A stretch of DNA of 64,000 nt from Flavobacteriales bacterium (lineage in GTDB: Bacteria > Bacteroidota > Bacteroidia > Flavobacteriales_C > GCA-002722245), in the NCBI GenBank assembly GCA_023251075.1, contig JAHEZM010000004.1:62001-126000 (forward strand), given 5' to 3'. Within the stretch, counting starts at the first letter, position 1. Each line of letters starts with the position of its first letter. Of the stretch, positions 6,990 to 16,961 are shown piece after piece. A program made the translations under genes and the position numbers. The notes under the pieces were generated by a model, which was given only the letters and a program-made list of their open reading frames with translations, was not told where the DNA came from and made no database searches.

Positions 6990-9260
6990 GTGAGATCACG
7001 CTTTCTTATATTGTTGTTGCTTTTGTCGTTATCAATGCTTGCTCAAAAGCGAGTGATTAGTGGTTATGTGAGCGATTCCCTGTCGAAAGAAAGTATGATC
7101 GGAGTGAGTGTTTTTGATCAAAAAAATAAGCAGGGTAACATCACGAATTCATTTGGTTTTTATTCCATTTCTCTACCTGCTGATTCTGTAGAAATTTCTT
7201 TTTCATTTGTGGGTTATTCTACTCAAATTATTAAGCTGTTATTAGAGCGTGACACTACCATGAACGTGGTTTTACATCATGAAATTTCGCAAGTAAAAGA
7301 AGTGAAAATCACGGCCCTAAAAAATAAAGATCAGGATGGAATGAGTTTAAATGAACTTAAAATTGACCCTAAGAAATTAATTACCATGCCTTCTTTTGCA
7401 GGGGAAACCGATCCTTTGAAAATTATGCAATTGATGCCGGGTGTTAAAGCAGGGCAGGAAGGAACGAATGGCATTTATGTGCGAGGAGGAAATGCAGATC
7501 AGAATTTGATTTTACTGGATGATGCTCCAGTGTATAATCCCGGACATTTACTTGGTTTTTTTTCGGTATTTAACAATGATGCGATTAAAGATGTGAAGTT
7601 GATTAAAGGAGGTTTCGATGCGCAGTATGGAGGAAGACTATCGTCGGTAGTTGATATTAGAACAGAAGATGGTAACATGAGAAAAACGGAGTTGGAGGGT
7701 GGAGTAGGCTTACTTTCATCACGCTTTACGGTACAAGGTCCAATTAAAAAAGATACCATTTCCTATATGGTGGGAGCGAGAAGATCTTACATCGATCAAT
7801 TATCGAAACTCACCAATTTCGCGGTACCCTATTATTTCTATGATTTGAATGCCAAGATCAATTATAAAATGAATGCCAAGACACGACTGTATTTGAGTGG
7901 TTATTTTGGAAATGATATTTTAACTATAGGGCAAGCCAATAAAGATCAGTACGGAACTTTATCGGGTTTTGGATTTAACCTCATGAATTCAACCGCAACT
8001 TTGCGTTTGAATAGAGAGCATAGCGCAAAATTATTTGCCAATTACTCATTAATTACTACTGGTTTTGGGTATGATGTGAGTGGGCAATTTTCGGGTAATT
8101 CTATTTTGGTGAGATCAACTATCAGAGATTGGGGTGCAAAAGCAGATTACAATTATTATGCGAACGATAAGCATTTTGTGAAATTCGGGGGATTCTTTAC
8201 TACACATGTTTTCACACCCAACTTTATTAGTACCAGTGGTGAGATTACAGAGTTTATTAAAAGCAGAGTTCCCAATACTATTTACATGAATGAATTTGCG
8301 GCCTATGCTTCTGATCAGTATAAAGTGAATTCAAAATTTGTGTTGAATTATGGATTGCGATTGAGTGGAGCGTTAGTACAGCAAACCTCTTATATGGGAT
8401 TAGAGCCAAGAATAATGACTGCCTACCAACTTACTAAGAAATTTGCGATCAAGGCAAGTTATTCAAGAATGAGGCAATACATGCATTTGGTATCGAGTTC
8501 AACTGTTTCTCTGCCTACCGATTTGTGGTATCCTGTTACAAAAAATGTTCGACCATTGTATAGTGATCAGTACACTTTAGGTGCTGAATGGACATTGGCT
8601 AAAATTAAAAGTAAAGTGGTGGTGGAAGGGTATTATAAAAAAATGCACAATGTAATTCAGTACAAAGAAGGAGCTGATATTTTGTTGAATGACAAGTTTG
8701 AAAATGAAATTTTAGCAGGATTGGCCGAAGCGTATGGCGGAGAATTTTTCATACAAAAACAAGCAGGAAGATTTAGTGGATGGGTAGGTTATACTTTGTC
8801 GTGGTCGTTGAATTATTTTGCTGAATTGAATAAGGGAAAAGCATTTTATTCGAAGTTTGATCGCCGCCACGATTTATCCATTGTTCTTAACTATAAAGTA
8901 AATGATCGCTGGAATTTATCGGCAGTTTGGGTGTATATGACGGGTGCAAGATTTACACCACAAATCGGACAATATTTCATGCCTAATTCTTCTTTAACAG
9001 AGATCAATGTGATTCCTATTTACACCGATAGAAATGCAGTGACTATGTCGCCCACTCATCGTTTGGATATTAGTGCTACGTTAATGTCGAAACCAGAAAA
9101 AAAATTCAAATATGATTTGGTGTTTGGCGTTTACAATGTGTACAATCGCGCTAGTCCGTTCGTTGTTGAAATTGCACGATCAAGCAATGGTTCATTAACC
9201 TATCAACAACCAGGTTTATTTGGGATTGTACCTTATTTCGCCTATAATTTTAAAATATGA
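6990..9260 (+). CDS. TonB-dependent receptor with N-terminal carboxypeptidase-like domain
   Basis: A 756-residue outer-membrane receptor. The start is a GTG at 6990; an in-frame stop lies 10-12 nt upstream and the next ATG would remove the signal peptide. After the signal peptide comes a CarboxypepD_reg-like domain (about 22-105), then a plug domain with V-R-G-G-N-A-D-Q-N-L-I-L-L-D and Q-Y-G-G-R-L-S-S-V-V-D, then the barrel ending in Y-F-A-Y-N-F-K-I. It is shorter than SusC proteins (about 1000 residues) and is followed not by SusD but by a DUF4249 lipoprotein that overlaps it by 4 nt (ATGA). A second such pair lies on the other strand at 13548-16771. The substrate cannot be told from sequence. 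Confidence 0.9.
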   Translation: MRSRFLILLLLLSLSMLAQKRVISGYVSDSLSKESMIGVSVFDQKNKQGNITNSFGFYSISLPADSVEISFSFVGYSTQIIKLLLERDTTMNVVLHHEISQVKEVKITALKNKDQDGMSLNELKIDPKKLITMPSFAGETDPLKIMQLMPGVKAGQEGTNGIYVRGGNADQNLILLDDAPVYNPGHLLGFFSVFNNDAIKDVKLIKGGFDAQYGGRLSSVVDIRTEDGNMRKTELEGGVGLLSSRFTVQGPIKKDTISYMVGARRSYIDQLSKLTNFAVPYYFYDLNAKINYKMNAKTRLYLSGYFGNDILTIGQANKDQYGTLSGFGFNLMNSTATLRLNREHSAKLFANYSLITTGFGYDVSGQFSGNSILVRSTIRDWGAKADYNYYANDKHFVKFGGFFTTHVFTPNFISTSGEITEFIKSRVPNTIYMNEFAAYASDQYKVNSKFVLNYGLRLSGALVQQTSYMGLEPRIMTAYQLTKKFAIKASYSRMRQYMHLVSSSTVSLPTDLWYPVTKNVRPLYSDQYTLGAEWTLAKIKSKVVVEGYYKKMHNVIQYKEGADILLNDKFENEILAGLAEAYGGEFFIQKQAGRFSGWVGYTLSWSLNYFAELNKGKAFYSKFDRRHDLSIVLNYKVNDRWNLSAVWVYMTGARFTPQIGQYFMPNSSLTEINVIPIYTDRNAVTMSPTHRLDISATLMSKPEKKFKYDLVFGVYNVYNRASPFVVEIARSSNGSLTYQQPGLFGIVPYFAYNFKI

Positions 9261-10141
9261 TGAAAAGAATAAAAATACTATTGATCGTTTTCATTGTAGG
9301 TATTTATGCTTGCCGGCCAAAACCCTTGGAAATTGATATACAAGCAGCTCCTCCTAAGTTGGTGGTTGCTTCGCAAATTGTTCCTGAAACAGTTTTGGGA
9401 GTTATTGTAACACGTAGTTTTACAGCATTACAGCATGAGATTTACAATGAAGGATCGAAAAGCGTATCTCAGGAGTTTACCAATAATATTATTGTTCAAA
9501 ATGCTTTTGTGACGGTTAAATACGCTGGAATTACTGATACACTTTTTGCAGTTGATACCATTCCAGGATTGTATGTAAGCGCTAAAACTTTGCAAATTCC
9601 ATATCAGGAATATGAGTTGAATGTATATGATCCTGTATTGAACGAAAGCGTGAGTGCAAAATCGTCGATGTTACCTGCTGTAAAATTCGATACGGTATAT
9701 CCTATAGTGAAAGGAGCAAAAGAAATAAACTTAAAATTTTCATTCAAAGATTTCGAAGGTCAGAATTGGTATTTACTTAATGTTTATAAAGCAAACAACA
9801 ATAGTAATATTGCCAATCTGGATGTTAATTCTATTCCTTTTTCTACAGGAAAAAATCAATTGATTCAAACTCAATTGATCAATGATGTAGTTTACAACAC
9901 CAAAAATATTGACATTGAATTACAGTTGAAAGATGTAACCAGTGCAGATACCATAGGAGTAACGATTGCTAACATCTCAGAGGGGTATTATACATTCTTG
10001 CAGGCCCAAAGTAAAATTGATGGGATTATTTCTCAGTTCTTTCGTGAGCCGGTAAATACTCCCACCAATGTTCAAAATGGTTATGGATATTTTAGTGCAT
10101 ACGACCCTGATGTGAAGATCATAGATATTGGGAAATACTAG
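9257..10141 (+). CDS. DUF4249 lipoprotein, partner of the TonB receptor
   Basis: A 294-residue lipoprotein: the signal peptide ends in G-I-Y-A-C, with Cys19 as the likely lipid anchor. The mature protein looks like the DUF4249 family, with an opening of the form P-P-K-L-V-V-A-S-Q-I and a second domain with repeated beta-strands. DUF4249 genes are regularly coupled to TonB receptors in Bacteroidota. Here the start codon overlaps the receptor stop (ATGA), which implies translational coupling and a joint function at the outer membrane, perhaps as a substrate lid or capture protein (inferred). It ends 1 nt before the stop codon of the convergent PorP/SprF gene. Confidence 0.8.
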   Translation: MMKRIKILLIVFIVGIYACRPKPLEIDIQAAPPKLVVASQIVPETVLGVIVTRSFTALQHEIYNEGSKSVSQEFTNNIIVQNAFVTVKYAGITDTLFAVDTIPGLYVSAKTLQIPYQEYELNVYDPVLNESVSAKSSMLPAVKFDTVYPIVKGAKEINLKFSFKDFEGQNWYLLNVYKANNNSNIANLDVNSIPFSTGKNQLIQTQLINDVVYNTKNIDIELQLKDVTSADTIGVTIANISEGYYTFLQAQSKIDGIISQFFREPVNTPTNVQNGYGYFSAYDPDVKIIDIGKY

Positions 10142-10142
10142 A

Positions 10143-11111
10143 TTAATTAAAGCCTACACAAGGTAATACTCTAATTTTATTGGGTTTGTTTTTAGCACAT
10201 TTGAATAAATATCCCATAGATATTTCGTGTGACCCAACGTTAGCGGTTCCTAAGTTTGAAAAGGTAACATCGTAGCTATATCCAAATCTGAAATTGGATT
10301 TTTGAATACCTACCGATACAATTATTGCATCTCTTGTTCTGTACATTAATCCACCGGTTAACGGACCTTTTTTCATGTACATTCCAATATTTATTTCACG
10401 GAAATCTTTTTGTTGTTGAAATATAATTTGAGGAGAGATATAGGATTCTTGTCGGAGATATTTTGGTCCATGGTTGTATAAAGGAATAATCATACCTGCA
10501 TGAGCCGTAAATTTTCGAGGCAAAAGAGATTCTCCGTTCATAAACGATTGGTTGGGAGTGAGTAAATGATGGGCTGCAAAACCCGCTTGAAAATATTTAC
10601 TGTAAACAATTAAGCCAGAAGAAAAATCAGGATACATTACTTTCGTTGAAGGAACAATTTCTCCATAAATATTGCTAGGTCCTGTTTTAGGATTAATTCT
10701 ATCTCCAAATAATTGATTGGCGCCGTTTAAGCTTTTTTGTTCAAGATCGGCTTGAACCGCAAAGCTGAAGGATAAATCATGATTGATGGGTTGATTGAAA
10801 GCATACATTAATCCAACCCGGTTAGTAACCACTACACCTTTCCCTGCATTGTCGGTAGAAACCAACATTCCTAACCCACCAAATTTATTAATATTTTGAT
10901 CATAAGAAGCGCTATAGGTAACATAAGTTCCTTGAATTTGTGGCCATTGATCACGAAAGTTAGTAGCTAATCTTCCACATACATTTGTTCCTGCAAAGGC
11001 TGGATTGAGATAGAGAGGATTTGCGTAAAACTGACTGAATTGAGGATCTTGGGCGTTGAGCTTCGATGCAAACAAAGCTAGCGCCAACCATGTAAATAGT
11101 TTCTTCTTCAT
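10143..11111 (-). CDS. PorP/SprF family outer-membrane protein
   Basis: A 322-residue outer-membrane beta-barrel with signal peptide (cleavage near L-N-A-Q). The N-terminal signature of the PorP/SprF family is clear: D-P-Q-F-S-Q-F-Y-A-N-P, then N-P-A-F-A-G-T and R-D-Q-W-P. Known members work with the type IX secretion system, for example SprF for SprB export in Flavobacterium and PorP in Porphyromonas, and are often paired with large CHU_C adhesins. No adhesin is next door; instead it is the last gene of an operon with a sigma factor and an anti-sigma/PorP-like fusion, 52 nt downstream of the latter. Confidence 0.9.
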   Translation of the reverse strand: MKKKLFTWLALALFASKLNAQDPQFSQFYANPLYLNPAFAGTNVCGRLATNFRDQWPQIQGTYVTYSASYDQNINKFGGLGMLVSTDNAGKGVVVTNRVGLMYAFNQPINHDLSFSFAVQADLEQKSLNGANQLFGDRINPKTGPSNIYGEIVPSTKVMYPDFSSGLIVYSKYFQAGFAAHHLLTPNQSFMNGESLLPRKFTAHAGMIIPLYNHGPKYLRQESYISPQIIFQQQKDFREINIGMYMKKGPLTGGLMYRTRDAIIVSVGIQKSNFRFGYSYDVTFSNLGTANVGSHEISMGYLFKCAKNKPNKIRVLPCVGFN

Positions 11112-11163: not shown

Positions 11164-12831
11164 TTATTTCTTAATCACGTATCTCATTGTTAACTGGTGA
11201 GAGCTAACTAAATCATTCGTTAAATTAAAGTTCGTAGGTACATTCGAAAGTCCGTAACTATAAGTGAAACGTAGTTTATCATTCGAGTATCCTAAGCTAA
11301 ACATCATCGCATCGGCCGTAGAGAAATGTGCACCAGCCAATACATGTTTGTATCTCACGATATTACTCATCCAAATTTTATTGTAATCACCTTGCTTTCT
11401 AATGCTAATACTTGGTGAATAAACCCAGTTTGAGTTTTCATTCTTTCTAATATCAGTTCCCATTTGAGCAGTTAACTTCATAGGAATGTTAACATTTTGA
11501 TCAAAGAAAGAAAGTTTATAGGATGGACTAAACATATTGTCTAAACCAAACCCGGCATAAAACACTCTGGTGTTTATTAGTAAGCCAGCACCAAAGCTAC
11601 CGTATAGAACGTTGCTTGTACCAATGTTTTCAGGAATGTAAGCTGTTGAAGCTAATAAAACACCTGTTCTAGGATCAATAAAATCACCTGCACTAATTTT
11701 ATCCCAGTTTAAAACTCTATTATTTAAACCGTATTTAATAGAAGGTTCGATACTGATATTCGCCAATTTAAATTTAGGTGAGTAAACAAAAGATGCACCT
11801 GTAGAAGAGTATCTGTTAGCGCCCATTACATCAGACGATAAAACAAGAGCTACACCGCCTTTGATTTTATTTACATAACCATCTACTGAAATAGAATTGG
11901 TTAAGAAACTAGATGAATTTAGTTCGGGCCATTCGCTTCTGCTTACTGTTTTAATTCTTATTCCATCGGTTGTTCCTGCGAAAGAAGGATTTTCTTGAAT
12001 AGGTGAAGCGCCTCCATATAGAACAAACGGATCTCCAAGATTAATCAATTCAATACCTCCATGCATTTCATCTTTAATCTTTTTCGCTGATTTTTTAACA
12101 CCTGGTACTACAGAAATGATATTTTGAGAGAAATCATTTAATTCTTTAATAGAAGGTTCATTGAACGATAATATACTCGCTGTTTCTACTACAGCAGTTG
12201 CATCTATTGAATTTGATTTCACATCATTAATAGCTACGTTATTATTATTTGTGGTATTATCTCCAATAAAGGATGCCATCAAGTTCACGTGACCAATTTT
12301 TCTTTGCTCTTCCCATCTTCTTAGTCTTTCAACACCAGCTGAATTTTTACTTATATTATCTATGTCCACAAGGGTATTAGTATTGGATTGAGTAACAATA
12401 TCTGATTTTTCAGAAGATAAAGTGCTAGTAATAGTAGTTGGAGTATTATTATCAACTACATTTCTAGAAGAGCTATTTGCATTTTTATCTTGATTGCTAT
12501 TGTTGGCAGTATTGTTATTTCTGTTTTCAAATTTAAAATCGTGGTAGATAGCGTAGCTTAGGAACGACAAAAGAACCAGCAGTAAAGAGCTGATTCCCCA
12601 TTTGAACCATGGTGTTTTTCCTTTATTTTCATCGGCAAGCAAAGAGTCAACGTGTTTGTATTGAAGATTATCATCTTCTACAAAACTATTTTCCCAAGCA
12701 TTAAAATCTTTTTGAAACGAAGGATTTTCACCGATAAATTTATCTACTTCCAGCTTTTCCTGGAGCGATAAATTACCTTCGAAATAATCGAAAAGTACCT
12801 CGTCGATATTGTTTTTACTAATCATCATCAT
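11164..12831 (-). CDS. Anti-sigma factor fused to a PorP/SprF-like beta-barrel (dual-membrane-spanning type)
   Basis: A 555-residue protein of unusual build. Residues 1-75 are a short acidic, helical anti-sigma-like domain (D-E-V-L-F-D-Y-F-E-G-N-L), presumably cytoplasmic. Residues 77-96 form one transmembrane helix. About 100-260 is a Asn/Ser/Thr-rich linker. From about 265 to the end is a barrel-like domain that matches the neighbouring PorP/SprF protein (N-P-S-F-A-G-T and R-S-E-W-P against N-P-A-F-A-G-T and R-D-Q-W-P) and ends in Q-L-T-M-R-Y-V-I-K-K. The start overlaps the ECF sigma gene by 4 nt, supporting the anti-sigma role. This layout fits the dual-membrane-spanning anti-sigma (Dma) factors described in Bacteroides, which join inner and outer membranes in one chain. 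Function and topology here are inferred. Confidence 0.75.
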   Translation of the reverse strand: MMMISKNNIDEVLFDYFEGNLSLQEKLEVDKFIGENPSFQKDFNAWENSFVEDDNLQYKHVDSLLADENKGKTPWFKWGISSLLLVLLSFLSYAIYHDFKFENRNNNTANNSNQDKNANSSSRNVVDNNTPTTITSTLSSEKSDIVTQSNTNTLVDIDNISKNSAGVERLRRWEEQRKIGHVNLMASFIGDNTTNNNNVAINDVKSNSIDATAVVETASILSFNEPSIKELNDFSQNIISVVPGVKKSAKKIKDEMHGGIELINLGDPFVLYGGASPIQENPSFAGTTDGIRIKTVSRSEWPELNSSSFLTNSISVDGYVNKIKGGVALVLSSDVMGANRYSSTGASFVYSPKFKLANISIEPSIKYGLNNRVLNWDKISAGDFIDPRTGVLLASTAYIPENIGTSNVLYGSFGAGLLINTRVFYAGFGLDNMFSPSYKLSFFDQNVNIPMKLTAQMGTDIRKNENSNWVYSPSISIRKQGDYNKIWMSNIVRYKHVLAGAHFSTADAMMFSLGYSNDKLRFTYSYGLSNVPTNFNLTNDLVSSHQLTMRYVIKK

Positions 12832-13322
12832 ATCAAATTATTAATATCCTTTATCTGGTCTTTTATCTTTTGTCGGGCGCGAAACAAATACACTTTAACT
12901 TGTGATTCGTTTAATTTTAATATTTCTCCTATTTCCTCGTAGCTATAGCCTTCGAGGTCTCTCATTAACAATATTGATTTTTGAATTTCAGGAAGAGTAT
13001 TAATGTATTTGTAAATAATCTCTTTCAATTCAAAGCTCTGATTATCGCTACTTTCTGCATGTGGTTCGGCATAAGGAGCGGTTTCTATCGACTGCATTCT
13101 ACTGTGCTTTTTAACAAAGTTAATCAGCGCATTATGAGCAGTAGTAAAAAGCCAGGACTTAGCCTTCTCAAACTCCACATTGTCGAGGTTTTGCCATAAT
13201 TTTAAGAACGAATCTTGTACAATGTCGTTTGCATCGTCTTCATCGCGAAGAGATTTGTAAACGTATCCGTACAGCCGATGGCTAAGGGATAGGACTGCTT
13301 TATTGTATTCCTGTGTTGTCAA
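12828..13322 (-). CDS. ECF-type RNA polymerase sigma factor
   Basis: A 164-residue extracytoplasmic-function sigma factor. Region 2 (about residues 18-45) contains D-A-N-D-I-V-Q-D-S-F-L-K-L-W, used for core and -10 binding. Region 4 (about 108-155) contains L-P-E-I-Q-K-S-I-L-L and the recognition helix L-N-E-S-Q-V-K-V-Y-L-F-R-A-R. It is the first gene of an operon, followed with a 4-nt overlap by the anti-sigma/PorP-like fusion and then a PorP/SprF gene. The simplest reading is that it controls its own operon and other envelope or T9SS genes once the fusion protein releases it; targets are not visible. Confidence 0.9.
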   Translation of the reverse strand: MTTQEYNKAVLSLSHRLYGYVYKSLRDEDDANDIVQDSFLKLWQNLDNVEFEKAKSWLFTTAHNALINFVKKHSRMQSIETAPYAEPHAESSDNQSFELKEIIYKYINTLPEIQKSILLMRDLEGYSYEEIGEILKLNESQVKVYLFRARQKIKDQIKDINNLI

Positions 13323-13475
13323 AATACCTCCTTAGTTTCCCTTGTATAACAGCTTAGTGCTAAAACAATCTGGAAAGTTTAAAAGTTACACACCCTTTAA
13401 AAAAAAGTGAGATTCGAGTAAAGTTCGTGATTATTTAGGAGAAAGGGAAGGGGGAGTTGTTATTTGTTTAATGTT

Positions 13476-13547: not shown

Positions 13548-14414
13548 TTATTTTACCACGTCAATTTTACGACTTAGGGCAGAAGTACAGAACCATCCTT
13601 GCGCATCAGCGCCACTTCCTGCGGTACGAATAATATTGGTTCGTACGTTATTGGTGGGGGTAGCAAACAATCCTTGGTTATTGATTTGATCTACCATTTC
13701 ACCAAAATATTGCCAGGTATCTTTAGTAATGGAATAGATTTCTACTCTCACGGAATCACCCACTTCGTAAGGTTTTTGAAAGTTGTTGATAGAATATCTC
13801 ACCGGTTGAATAAACATTGCACCATCGTAGCCAGGGTAGAATTGGCCACCATTTACAGACAAATTGATTGTGCTTGGACCATCATTGTTAACGCCATTGG
13901 TATAACTTTTAATCCAGTAGAAATCGAATTGATTGGCAGGATCGTTGGCGTAAAACTGACCAAATAAACCATTGGGTTGCCCATCAAAGCCAATATTAGG
14001 TTCAAAAGCCATACTATCAATTGTCGGAGCAACATTTACCTGAGAACCTGCTTCGTATTTACTTCCCTGAAAATCAATTAATAACCGGTAGCTTATGCCT
14101 AGTTTACAAAGAGTATCCACATTGTTTTGTGCCCAAACATATTTACCCGAATTATTATTATCGGTAAAATGAAAGGTATCTCCTTCGCTGCTTACAACTT
14201 TAACTAATGCGCCCACGGCAGGTTCAGCAGTATTTTGATCGAAATAAGGGCGAGAATAAGTCAATGTAATTTGCTGACTGATGGTATCGCTATTGATGAA
14301 AGCATCAACCACTAAAAAAGGAGTTTCGTCTTTTAGTTTAACATCAATAACCTTTTCGCATGAGCTAAGGAATATAGCGGCAGATAGTATAAGAAGTAAT
14401 TTTTTCATACTCAT
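13548..14414 (-). CDS. DUF4249 lipoprotein, partner of the second TonB receptor
   Basis: A 288-residue lipoprotein with signal peptide ending F-L-S-S-C-E (Cys19 likely acylated). The mature start (V-I-D-V-K-L-K-D-E-T-P-F-L-V-V-D-A-F-I-N) is typical of DUF4249. Its ATG shares one base with the receptor's stop (TAATG), so the two are translationally coupled; a second in-frame ATG two codons later is an alternative start. It is the counterpart of the DUF4249 gene at 9257-10141, and the two receptor/lipoprotein pairs are therefore likely paralogous modules. Function beyond a role with the receptor is unknown. Confidence 0.8.
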   Translation of the reverse strand: MSMKKLLLILSAAIFLSSCEKVIDVKLKDETPFLVVDAFINSDTISQQITLTYSRPYFDQNTAEPAVGALVKVVSSEGDTFHFTDNNNSGKYVWAQNNVDTLCKLGISYRLLIDFQGSKYEAGSQVNVAPTIDSMAFEPNIGFDGQPNGLFGQFYANDPANQFDFYWIKSYTNGVNNDGPSTINLSVNGGQFYPGYDGAMFIQPVRYSINNFQKPYEVGDSVRVEIYSITKDTWQYFGEMVDQINNQGLFATPTNNVRTNIIRTAGSGADAQGWFCTSALSRKIDVVK

Positions 14415-16771
14415 TAGAATTTAAAATTATAAGAAACAGAAGGGATAACAGTACTGATAATGGTGTACTGAATGGCTTGTGTTTTGGTAGCATCTTTCGG
14501 GTCTGTTTGAAAATATACAGTAAAGGCATTGCTTCGAGCGTAAACATTGTATACAGAAACAACGCATTCGCCATACCATTTTCTATTTGTTTTTTCTTTT
14601 GGTTTGAAGGTTAGTGACAAATCGAGACGATGATAAGGAGTTATGCGGTAGTTGTTTCTTGCATCGTTTTCGATGTGTGCGTAATTGATTCCCTGAACAG
14701 TAATTTTGCTGTTAGGAAAAGTAGAAGGAGCACCGGTAGTATAAATAAAGTTGGCACCCAGTTCAATTCTTTTGGTAATATTATAAGAAAGAACAAGATT
14801 TAAATAGTGTGTTTTATCGAAGCGCGTGGGGTACCAGTTGTCTTTATTGATACTGGGTGTTTGACGTTCAGATCGTGAAAGAGTATAACTCAACCATCCG
14901 TTTAATCTTCCTTCGCTTTTTCTCACAAAAAATTCTGCGCCATAAGATCTTCCGGTTCCACTTAACAATTGAGCTTCATAGGTTTCGTTCAACAACAAGT
15001 TTGCGTTTTTGATGTAATCCAATTGATTCTGCATTTTTTTGTAATATACTTCCACAGAGCTTTCTAAAGCATTGTTAAAGAAATTTCTGAAATACCCTAT
15101 AGCCACCTGATCGGCAATTTGAGGTTTTAAGTTATTGGTGCTAATCGACCACATATCTAATGGAGTGGAAGCAGCTGTGTTGGAAAGAAGGTGAATGTAT
15201 TGCGACATTCTGTTGTAAGATGCTTTGATAGAACTTTGTTCATTCACATCATATTTAAACGACAAACGTGGTTCAGGATTCCAGTAGCTTTTTATTATTT
15301 CCAAAGTGTTGTGATCGGTAGTGCTGATCAATTCTTTTTCGCTTCCAACCAAGGTATCTTTATAGCTATAGCTTTTTCCTTTTCCAAGAAATTGGTAAAA
15401 TGAAGTTCTGATACCGTAGGATAAAATAATTCTCGATCCTATTTTCTGCTCATTTTCTATGTAAGCAGCCGATTCTAATGCGTATTTATCAGCAAGTGTA
15501 ATACCACTGCTTTGTCCGCCTGAAGAAAATGTTGCACTCCCCGGTTTAATATTATAGTAAATCGATTGAGCTCCAAAGCGAACAGTGTTTTTAGTATTGG
15601 GATACCATGTGAATTCAGGTTTAACGCTATAGTTAATGATGTTCGATTTCCAGTGAAAACCATCGGCATCACCATCTTTTCCGAAATCCAATCGATAATC
15701 GTAGTTGCTGTAATAAGCAGTAGTATTCATGAAAAGCTTATTCGAGAAAAGGTGATTCCAGCGAGCTGTGGCTGTAGAGTTTCCCCAATTGAACCCAAAT
15801 AAATTACCTCCAAAAACGTCTCTACCAAAATAGCCGGAAAGAAAAACCTTGTTTTTTTCATTGATGTCCCAATTGGCTTTAGCAGTTAAATCGTAGAAAT
15901 AAAACTTAGAATCTTTAAAGCTTGCACTTAAAAAAGGTTTTGCGAGAATGTCGATGTATGATCTTCTGCCAGCAATAATGAATGATCCTTTCTTTTTTGT
16001 TCCGGGTATAGGACCTTCTAAAGTTAGGCGACTAAATATTACACCTATTCCACCCGATCCGGTGAATTTATTTTTATTTCCTTCTTTCATTCTAACATCT
16101 AACACAGAGGAGAGTCGGCCACCATATTGAGGATTAATACCACCTTTAATCAACTTTACACTTTTAACAGCATCAGGATTGAAAACGGAAAAGAAGCCAA
16201 ATAAGTGAGAAGAATTGTAAACAGGTGCTTCATCCAATAGAATTAAATTTTGATCGATGTTACCACCACGAACGTTAAAACCTGTAGCGCCTTCACCTAC
16301 TGTAGAAACTCCTGGTAAGGTTTGAATGCTTCTGATCACATCGGGTTCTCCTAATAAAGCGGGCATTTTATTAATGGCTTTTATATCCATTTGTATGGTG
16401 CTCATCTCTATTTTTTTTACGTTGTCGTTCTTTCTTTTTGCTGTAATTTTCACTTCATCGACTTCAGTACTTTTCGCTTTTATCGCGATATCTAATTGGG
16501 TATTTGATTTCAGTTCAATTTTTTGTTCAACGGTTTCCATTCCCACAAATGAAATCGTTAAGGTGTAGGTACCTTTGGGTAGAGTAATAGAGAAAAATCC
16601 GTATTCATTACTCACGGTTCCCGTATTATTTTCTTTGATCATAATGGAGGCACCATTCACCACTTCGCCATTATCAGGGTTTTTAATATAACCATTAATG
16701 GTAAAATTGTCTTGCGCCTGGCTCATCAAAAAAGAGAAGGTTAAAAATAAAGTGGTAAGAATACGCTGCAT
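14414..16771 (-). CDS. TonB-dependent receptor with N-terminal carboxypeptidase-like domain
   Basis: A 785-residue outer-membrane receptor. I place the start at the ATG at 16771 (M-Q-R-I-L-T-T-L-F-L), because it gives a normal signal peptide; the frame is open 14 codons further upstream. After the signal peptide there is a CarboxypepD_reg-like domain (F-T-I-N-G-Y-I, G-T-V-S-N-E-Y-G-F-F), a plug with V-R-G-G-N-I-D-Q-N-L-I-L-L-D-E-A-P, and a barrel ending in S-V-S-Y-N-F-K-F. The plug is closely similar to that of the receptor at 6990-9260 (shared P-Q-Y-G-G-R-L-S-S-V-like segment and L-I-K-G-G). It is coupled to the DUF4249 gene and has no SusD partner. Substrate unknown. Confidence 0.9.
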   Translation of the reverse strand: MQRILTTLFLTFSFLMSQAQDNFTINGYIKNPDNGEVVNGASIMIKENNTGTVSNEYGFFSITLPKGTYTLTISFVGMETVEQKIELKSNTQLDIAIKAKSTEVDEVKITAKRKNDNVKKIEMSTIQMDIKAINKMPALLGEPDVIRSIQTLPGVSTVGEGATGFNVRGGNIDQNLILLDEAPVYNSSHLFGFFSVFNPDAVKSVKLIKGGINPQYGGRLSSVLDVRMKEGNKNKFTGSGGIGVIFSRLTLEGPIPGTKKKGSFIIAGRRSYIDILAKPFLSASFKDSKFYFYDLTAKANWDINEKNKVFLSGYFGRDVFGGNLFGFNWGNSTATARWNHLFSNKLFMNTTAYYSNYDYRLDFGKDGDADGFHWKSNIINYSVKPEFTWYPNTKNTVRFGAQSIYYNIKPGSATFSSGGQSSGITLADKYALESAAYIENEQKIGSRIILSYGIRTSFYQFLGKGKSYSYKDTLVGSEKELISTTDHNTLEIIKSYWNPEPRLSFKYDVNEQSSIKASYNRMSQYIHLLSNTAASTPLDMWSISTNNLKPQIADQVAIGYFRNFFNNALESSVEVYYKKMQNQLDYIKNANLLLNETYEAQLLSGTGRSYGAEFFVRKSEGRLNGWLSYTLSRSERQTPSINKDNWYPTRFDKTHYLNLVLSYNITKRIELGANFIYTTGAPSTFPNSKITVQGINYAHIENDARNNYRITPYHRLDLSLTFKPKEKTNRKWYGECVVSVYNVYARSNAFTVYFQTDPKDATKTQAIQYTIISTVIPSVSYNFKF

Positions 16772-16961
16772 AGGGTATGTTTTATCTGCGGCGAAATTAA
16801 TGTATATAATCAAACACAGAAACTTTAATTAGGTGAGAAGTCGATAGAAGTCGGTGAGCAGTAAAAAATGTAGTTTAATAACTTGTTAAAAAATATGTAA
16901 TGCATGTTCCTCGTTAGCAGTTTAATTATTCTATTTTTAGCTCAAACTTAAACTTAATACA

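Follow-up and report, generated by a model that had tools for sequence, protein, structure and literature searches.

A predicted anti-sigma factor with a PorP/SprF-type barrel and its putative regulon of T9SS type B cargo genes in uncultured Flavobacteriales

In the genome of an uncultured member of the Flavobacteriales, the gene that follows an ECF sigma factor gene encodes a protein that begins like an anti-sigma factor and ends like the PorP/SprF proteins of the T9SS, and it is itself followed by a gene for a free PorP. The question raised by this locus is what a sigma factor might be told by such a barrel, and which genes would respond. The locus was analyzed within a stretch of 64,000 nucleotides of contig JAHEZM010000004.1 (positions 62,001 to 126,000 of the forward strand), hereafter the window, and compared with other genomes of the class. 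The genomes appear to be metagenome-assembled, and their ORFs were called mechanically.

The fusion protein and its predicted fold

The preliminary description of the locus had read an anti-sigma-like N-terminus, one membrane helix, a linker of 160 residues and a PorP domain out of a single ORF, an arrangement that profile searches and an AlphaFold2 model confirm. The ORF is intact, overlaps the preceding sigma gene by 4 bases and lies on the same strand as the free PorP gene that comes after it (Table 1). The sigma gene product belongs with the sigma_PG0214/GFO_1088 family (NF058625, 140.6 bits with a cut-off of 130), and its TTG start is also kept in relatives.

Table 1. Features of the sigma factor operon, in window coordinates
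Feature	Coordinates	Strand	Basis or remark
Predicted sigma-operon promoter TGTAACTTTTAAACTTTCCAGATTGTTTTA	13361..13390	-	About 39 bases 5′ of the TTG start; kept in 8/8 family genomes and in G194
ECF sigma factor, 164 aa, TTG start	12828..13322	-	NF058625 above cut-off; Sigma70_r2, r4_2
Anti-sigma factor/PorP barrel fusion, 555 aa	11164..12831	-	ORF, domain matches, alignment, AlphaFold2 model
Anti-sigma-like domain, residues 1-70 (three helices within 6-49)	12622..12831	-	AlphaFold2 model; N-terminus profile
Transmembrane helix, residues 75-99	12535..12609	-	AlphaFold2 model; hydrophobic stretch conserved in alignment
Polar disordered linker, residues 100-262	12046..12534	-	pLDDT <50 over 96-257; sequence and length unconserved
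PorP/SprF-type 14-strand barrel, residues 263-555, without C-terminal cysteine tail	11167..12045	-	PF11751, TIGR03519, strands, fold match
Free PorP/SprF, 322 aa, signal peptide, two C-terminal cysteines (305, 318)	10143..11111	-	TIGR03519 232 bits; model

PF11751 (PorP_SprF) covers residues 281-551 of the fusion (E 5e-30, 105 bits, cut-off 22.3) and TIGR03519 covers residues 276-552 (113.5 bits, curated cut-off 90.6), the latter profile being matched only from its position 32 onward. A signal peptide of PorP type is not present in the fusion; since its N-terminus is instead the anti-sigma part, it is classified as a PorP-domain protein and not as a free PorP. The PorP signature that the fusion had been said to have in common with the next gene does occur in both, as ENPSFAGT and RSEWP in the fusion and as LNPAFAGT and RDQWP in the free PorP.

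Structure prediction had been proposed as a check of the fusion, and AlphaFold2, given 16 aligned sequences taken from the window and related loci and run on single chains only, modelled a C-terminal barrel of 14 strands within residues 291-554. The same model has helices at residues 6-17, 23-35 and 38-49, a membrane helix at residues 75-99, and no structure over residues 96-257 (pLDDT <50). The fused barrel matches the folds of FadL (Z 22.0, rmsd 2.8, 246 residues) and of the T9SS protein PorV (8gl6_F; Z 21.1, rmsd 3.3, 248 residues), and the model of the free PorP likewise has 14 main strands. An even number of strands places the N-terminus of the modelled barrel on the periplasmic side, in agreement with a tether arriving from the inner membrane; the barrel N-terminus is thus predicted to face the periplasm. 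About 160 residues, even partly extended, are long enough to bridge a periplasm a few tens of nm wide. The architecture of anti-sigma-like N-terminus, helix, tether and PorP barrel is well supported.

No Pfam or NCBIfam model matches the N-terminus of the fusion, which is assigned as an anti-sigma domain because of its position, its topology and the behavior of a profile built from the N-termini (residues 1 to about 100) of eight fusions. When this profile was applied to 80 loci, the surroundings of NF058625-like sigma genes across the class, it matched the gene directly behind the sigma gene in 57, a result that is the main support for the label.

Conservation of the fusion and its free PorP neighbor

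The fusion, the sigma gene and the promoter are retained in all eight near-complete members of the GTDB family of the window, all of which also possess SprA of the T9SS translocon. Full-length fusions in the seven further family genomes are 51-57% identical to that of the window within the same genus and 30-33% identical in the sister genus, and their alignment is conserved at both ends and unconserved in the linker. A scan of contigs with the single fusion sequence gave no match, and the alignment-based scan found nine loci; among 395 genomes of the class, there is one extra full-length fusion, in a genome of another family (G194), with the sigma gene 5′ and a free PorP 3′ of it. This distribution indicates that the fusion is old but rare. 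An ORF with a PorP domain on another contig (C11, L039) was considered as an anti-sigma fusion and rejected: it encodes a PorP-OmpA protein and has no adjacent sigma gene.

The free PorP directly behind the fusion is intact in six of the eight genomes. In the other two it seems to be a remnant (G001, L042 1820-2371) or split by a frameshift (G004, L045 8412-9376), with the fusion intact in both cases, and an assembly error is possible in each. Apparent breakage of the neighboring gene is what might lead one to regard the fusion as a functionless product of chance or decay, a notion that is hardly credible for an ORF that nine genomes from three genera carry in intact form, with conserved ends.

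Type B CTD proteins leaving the T9SS are received by PorP-like proteins, which retain them at the cell surface (PMC9143113, PMC12618676), and SprF is tied to the gliding track through cysteines of its periplasmic C-terminal tail (PMC12635249). Each of the six free PorPs encoded next to a fusion in the family has two C-terminal cysteines, as do 21 of a further 27 PorPs that were examined, whereas none of the nine fusions of this first type has a tail cysteine and six of them have no cysteine at all. With the cysteine pair absent, the fused barrel looks like a receptor freed from the role of carrier. Its barrel domain resembles the PorP/SprF shuttles and anchors in scoring above the PF11751 and TIGR03519 cut-offs and in having 14 strands, but the fusion differs from them in having no signal peptide of its own, a predicted cytoplasmic N-terminus and no C-terminal cysteine pair. 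It could nevertheless be supposed that the fusion is a working T9SS shuttle and anchor for the cargo of its regulon, with the anti-sigma part no more than a slow brake, lost by dilution or degradation along with the rest, as PorP-like proteins are stoichiometric shuttles or anchors of type B cargo (PMC12618676, PMC9143113) and type B genes are nearby: a type B cargo gene adjoins the free PorP in five of the eight genomes, although none adjoins the operon in this window. The missing tail of carrier PorPs, and an intact free PorP available for carrying directly behind the fusion in most of the genomes, make this supposition an unlikely one.

A promoter motif and its predicted regulon

Upstream of the sigma gene, TGTAAC and ATTGTTYTA are conserved with a spacing of 15-16 bases. 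A search for TGTAAC-N15/16-TTGTTYTA gave 47 matches in the eight family genomes, eight of them at the sigma operon, versus three for the reversed control. With the spacing fixed at 15 bases the motif is absent from the window, the spacing of the window copy being 16, and the variable-gap search finds it. The motif is likewise 5′ of the sigma gene in G194; in the remaining searched genomes, pooled, it shows no excess over the control.

Thirty-eight of the 39 non-self matches were followed, the remaining one being at a contig end. In 35 of them an ORF of at least 100 aa starts no more than 350 bases downstream, in most cases with a secreted-like beginning; the other three have no gene. Twenty of these ORFs are complete within the flanking sequence taken for each match, and six more became so once it was extended, giving 26 complete genes, and the T9SS type B sorting domain TIGR04131 is present in 20 of the 26, while six are not type B cargo. 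Against a background of 382 CHU_C domains in ~22,900 genes (~1.7%), the binomial probability is about 6e-31, a figure that overstates independence, as the targets are partly orthologues and not 26 independent events. On the other hand, that orthologous cargo genes have kept the motif in front of them is itself evidence of function. Of the five non-self matches in the genome of the window, three precede complete genes for type B cargo; the other two precede genes for large secreted proteins that are cut by contig ends. No other sigma factors were found among the genes behind the motif. Among the targets that are not cargo are one small secreted protein and two proteins resembling lipoproteins (L240 in G001:C86, L245 in G004:C40 and L246 in G004:C55).

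It is therefore a strong prediction from sequence that the sigma factor controls its own operon and T9SS type B cargo genes, although another sigma factor could read the same motif. In a genome of another family (G031), the motif was observed before a related sigma/anti-sigma pair, before a T9SS type A cargo gene on the contig of that pair, and also before a PKD-like protein; the anti-sigma gene of this pair is cut by the contig end (L050 G031:C118, L259 G031:C233).

The immediate neighbors of the operon might suggest different targets. Pairs of TonB-dependent receptor and DUF4249 genes flank it in the window (6990-10141 on the plus strand, 13548-16813 on the minus strand), and the pair 5′ of the sigma gene is retained within the genus and absent in the sister genus. 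A similar link, in which an ECF sigma factor receives its signal from a barrel in the outer membrane, is known from FecI-FecR-FecA systems (PMC9249621), and the fusion might be a FecI/FecR-like uptake regulator of the flanking genes, which stand on both sides of it in the window and beside it in the same genus. This is very improbable. A Pfam scan found no FecR domain and, in the receptors, no STN signalling domain; there is no TonB-dependent transducer here, and barrel and anti-sigma part are instead in one chain; the receptor genes do not stand beside the operon in the sister genus; and the promoter motif was not found before the receptor/DUF4249 genes, either with the fixed spacing or with both spacings.

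A second fusion and the proposed feedback

The genome of the window encodes another system of this kind. On contig C43 (L040:1000-4116), a sigma gene is accompanied by genes for a chain of 631 aa that combines a hydrophobic helix with a PorP domain (PF11751, 70.7 bits) and for a T9SS type B protein of 214 aa. The second system is found in all eight family genomes, the gene of G003 being broken by a run of N, and in all eight a small CTD-type protein (~215 aa) then follows, its gene overlapping in several; the CTD is confirmed by profile in five of the eight, although one of these five falls just below the Pfam cut-off. These small proteins have a lipoprotein-like signal at their start. A tree of 53 PorP domains separates the two fusion groups and places the second with free PorPs of two genomes from other families (G094 and G054; support 100/99) that adjoin small CTD proteins, the CTD being confirmed for G094. 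The separate positions indicate that PorP barrels have been joined to anti-sigma factors at least twice, and the relatives of the second barrel beside CTD proteins indicate that one of these barrels kept its CTD partner. In one further genome (L080:1465-3255, G026:C45), a protein of 274 aa with an anti-sigma-like stretch of the second type lies directly before a free PorP, and the two genes may be an unfused version of this second system. The second-type sigma genes (L069-L073) have upstream a classical ECF-like promoter, GCAACCCTTT-N11-CGTC, a search for which returned little beyond the second operon itself; accordingly, no regulon is claimed for this system. With type B cargo as the predicted regulon of the first fusion and a type B cargo gene adjoining the second, the connection to the T9SS is firmer than when it was first claimed.

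The wider group of NF058625-like sigma genes offers another view of what such barrels are for. The commonest order in the 80 loci is a sigma factor, a barrel-less anti-sigma factor and a separate outer-membrane protein. On a Cytophagales contig (L098), sigma factor, barrel-less anti-sigma factor and free PorP are encoded by separate genes, as they are in G025 (L051) with one extra gene between; in L117 a barrel of another type, OMP_b-brl_2, is fused in the manner of the Dma proteins described below. A PorP match occurs in only one of the 80 stretches (L130), about 1 kb beyond the next OMP gene, and so the PorP link is not general for the NF058625 group. From the usual presence of an OMP gene in related operons and the fusion of OMP_b-brl_2 in L117, it might be argued that barrels are generally used by these regulators, and that a barrel on an anti-sigma tether with a membrane helix is an outer-membrane assembly sensor: a decoy client of BAM, whose failed insertion would lead to a periplasmic cut and RseA-like release of the sigma factor, its PorP identity being incidental. 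We consider this improbable, though less so than the other alternatives, for the predicted regulon is T9SS cargo and not chaperones or BAM parts, and recruitment of a PorP domain happened on two occasions, one of them next to a CTD protein.

The closest known parallel is the Dma anti-sigma factors of Bacteroides thetaiotaomicron, which consist of an anti-sigma domain, a membrane helix, a long disordered tether and a C-terminal beta-barrel (PMC13088901, citing Pardue et al. 2024); the assertion that anti-sigma factors spanning both membranes are known in Bacteroides is borne out by this type, which has the same order of parts, a gene adjoining an ECF sigma gene, and an occurrence known only in Bacteroidota. 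The sigma partners of Dma are of type ECF21, and the reported effects of Dma1/2 concern vesiculation, nigD1 and PULs; here the adjacent ECF sigma gene is assigned by NF058625, the barrel is PorP/SprF, a family that goes unmentioned in the Dma2 paper, and the predicted regulon is T9SS type B cargo. No published PorP/anti-sigma fusion was found in the open-licence papers searched. The order of parts was already known from Dma; new are the barrel of PorP type, the predicted regulon of T9SS cargo and a second fusion of independent origin.

It is somewhat probable, then, that the fusion is a Dma-type anti-sigma factor that spans the envelope, with a PorP-type barrel for type B cargo and a sigma factor that controls cargo genes. 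The type B cargo gene beside the free PorP in five of the eight genomes speaks for this reading as well. The N-terminus would keep the ECF sigma factor at the inner membrane; the one membrane helix and its tether of ~160 residues would lead through the periplasm to a PorP barrel seated in the outer membrane. The sigma factor would transcribe its own operon together with genes for large type B cargo proteins that are secreted or displayed at the surface, and the barrel would most likely report type B cargo that has passed through the T9SS and been loaded at the surface. The state of the barrel might travel along the chain, by pulling, by exposure of a cleavage site or by release, so that the sigma factor is held or let go and cargo supply is coupled to cargo export. 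Binding of the sigma factor, outer-membrane insertion, cargo sensing and the sign of the signal are the parts of this scheme that we infer. Loading could activate or repress, as in cargo homeostasis; we lean slightly toward release of the sigma factor upon loading, by analogy with Porphyromonas gingivalis, where activation of the sigma factor SigP requires PorA, a CTD protein at the cell surface (PMC7712824). That system, too, ties a surface CTD protein to an ECF sigma factor of T9SS genes, but its link is the two-component system PorXY (PMC7712824), whereas here one polypeptide could join barrel and sigma factor, and the motif stands before cargo genes rather than machine genes. The more specific proposal of a secretion feedback in one polypeptide, in which exported type B cargo loads the barrel and thereby sets the activity of the cargo-gene sigma factor, a design that would have arisen twice from two PorP lineages, is tentative; we hold it to be possible, a little short of probable.

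How Bacteroidota match the production of T9SS cargo to its export is little known beyond PorXY-SigP of P. gingivalis. In the Flavobacteriales considered here, a candidate sensor, a sigma factor, a promoter motif and target genes can all be named from sequence, which makes the question directly testable. The known use of envelope-spanning anti-sigma factors would be extended from vesiculation to secretion, and the promoter signature offers a means to read cargo regulons in uncultured Flavobacteriales. Taken together, the findings suggest a direct feedback circuit from cell surface to gene in a group of these bacteria.
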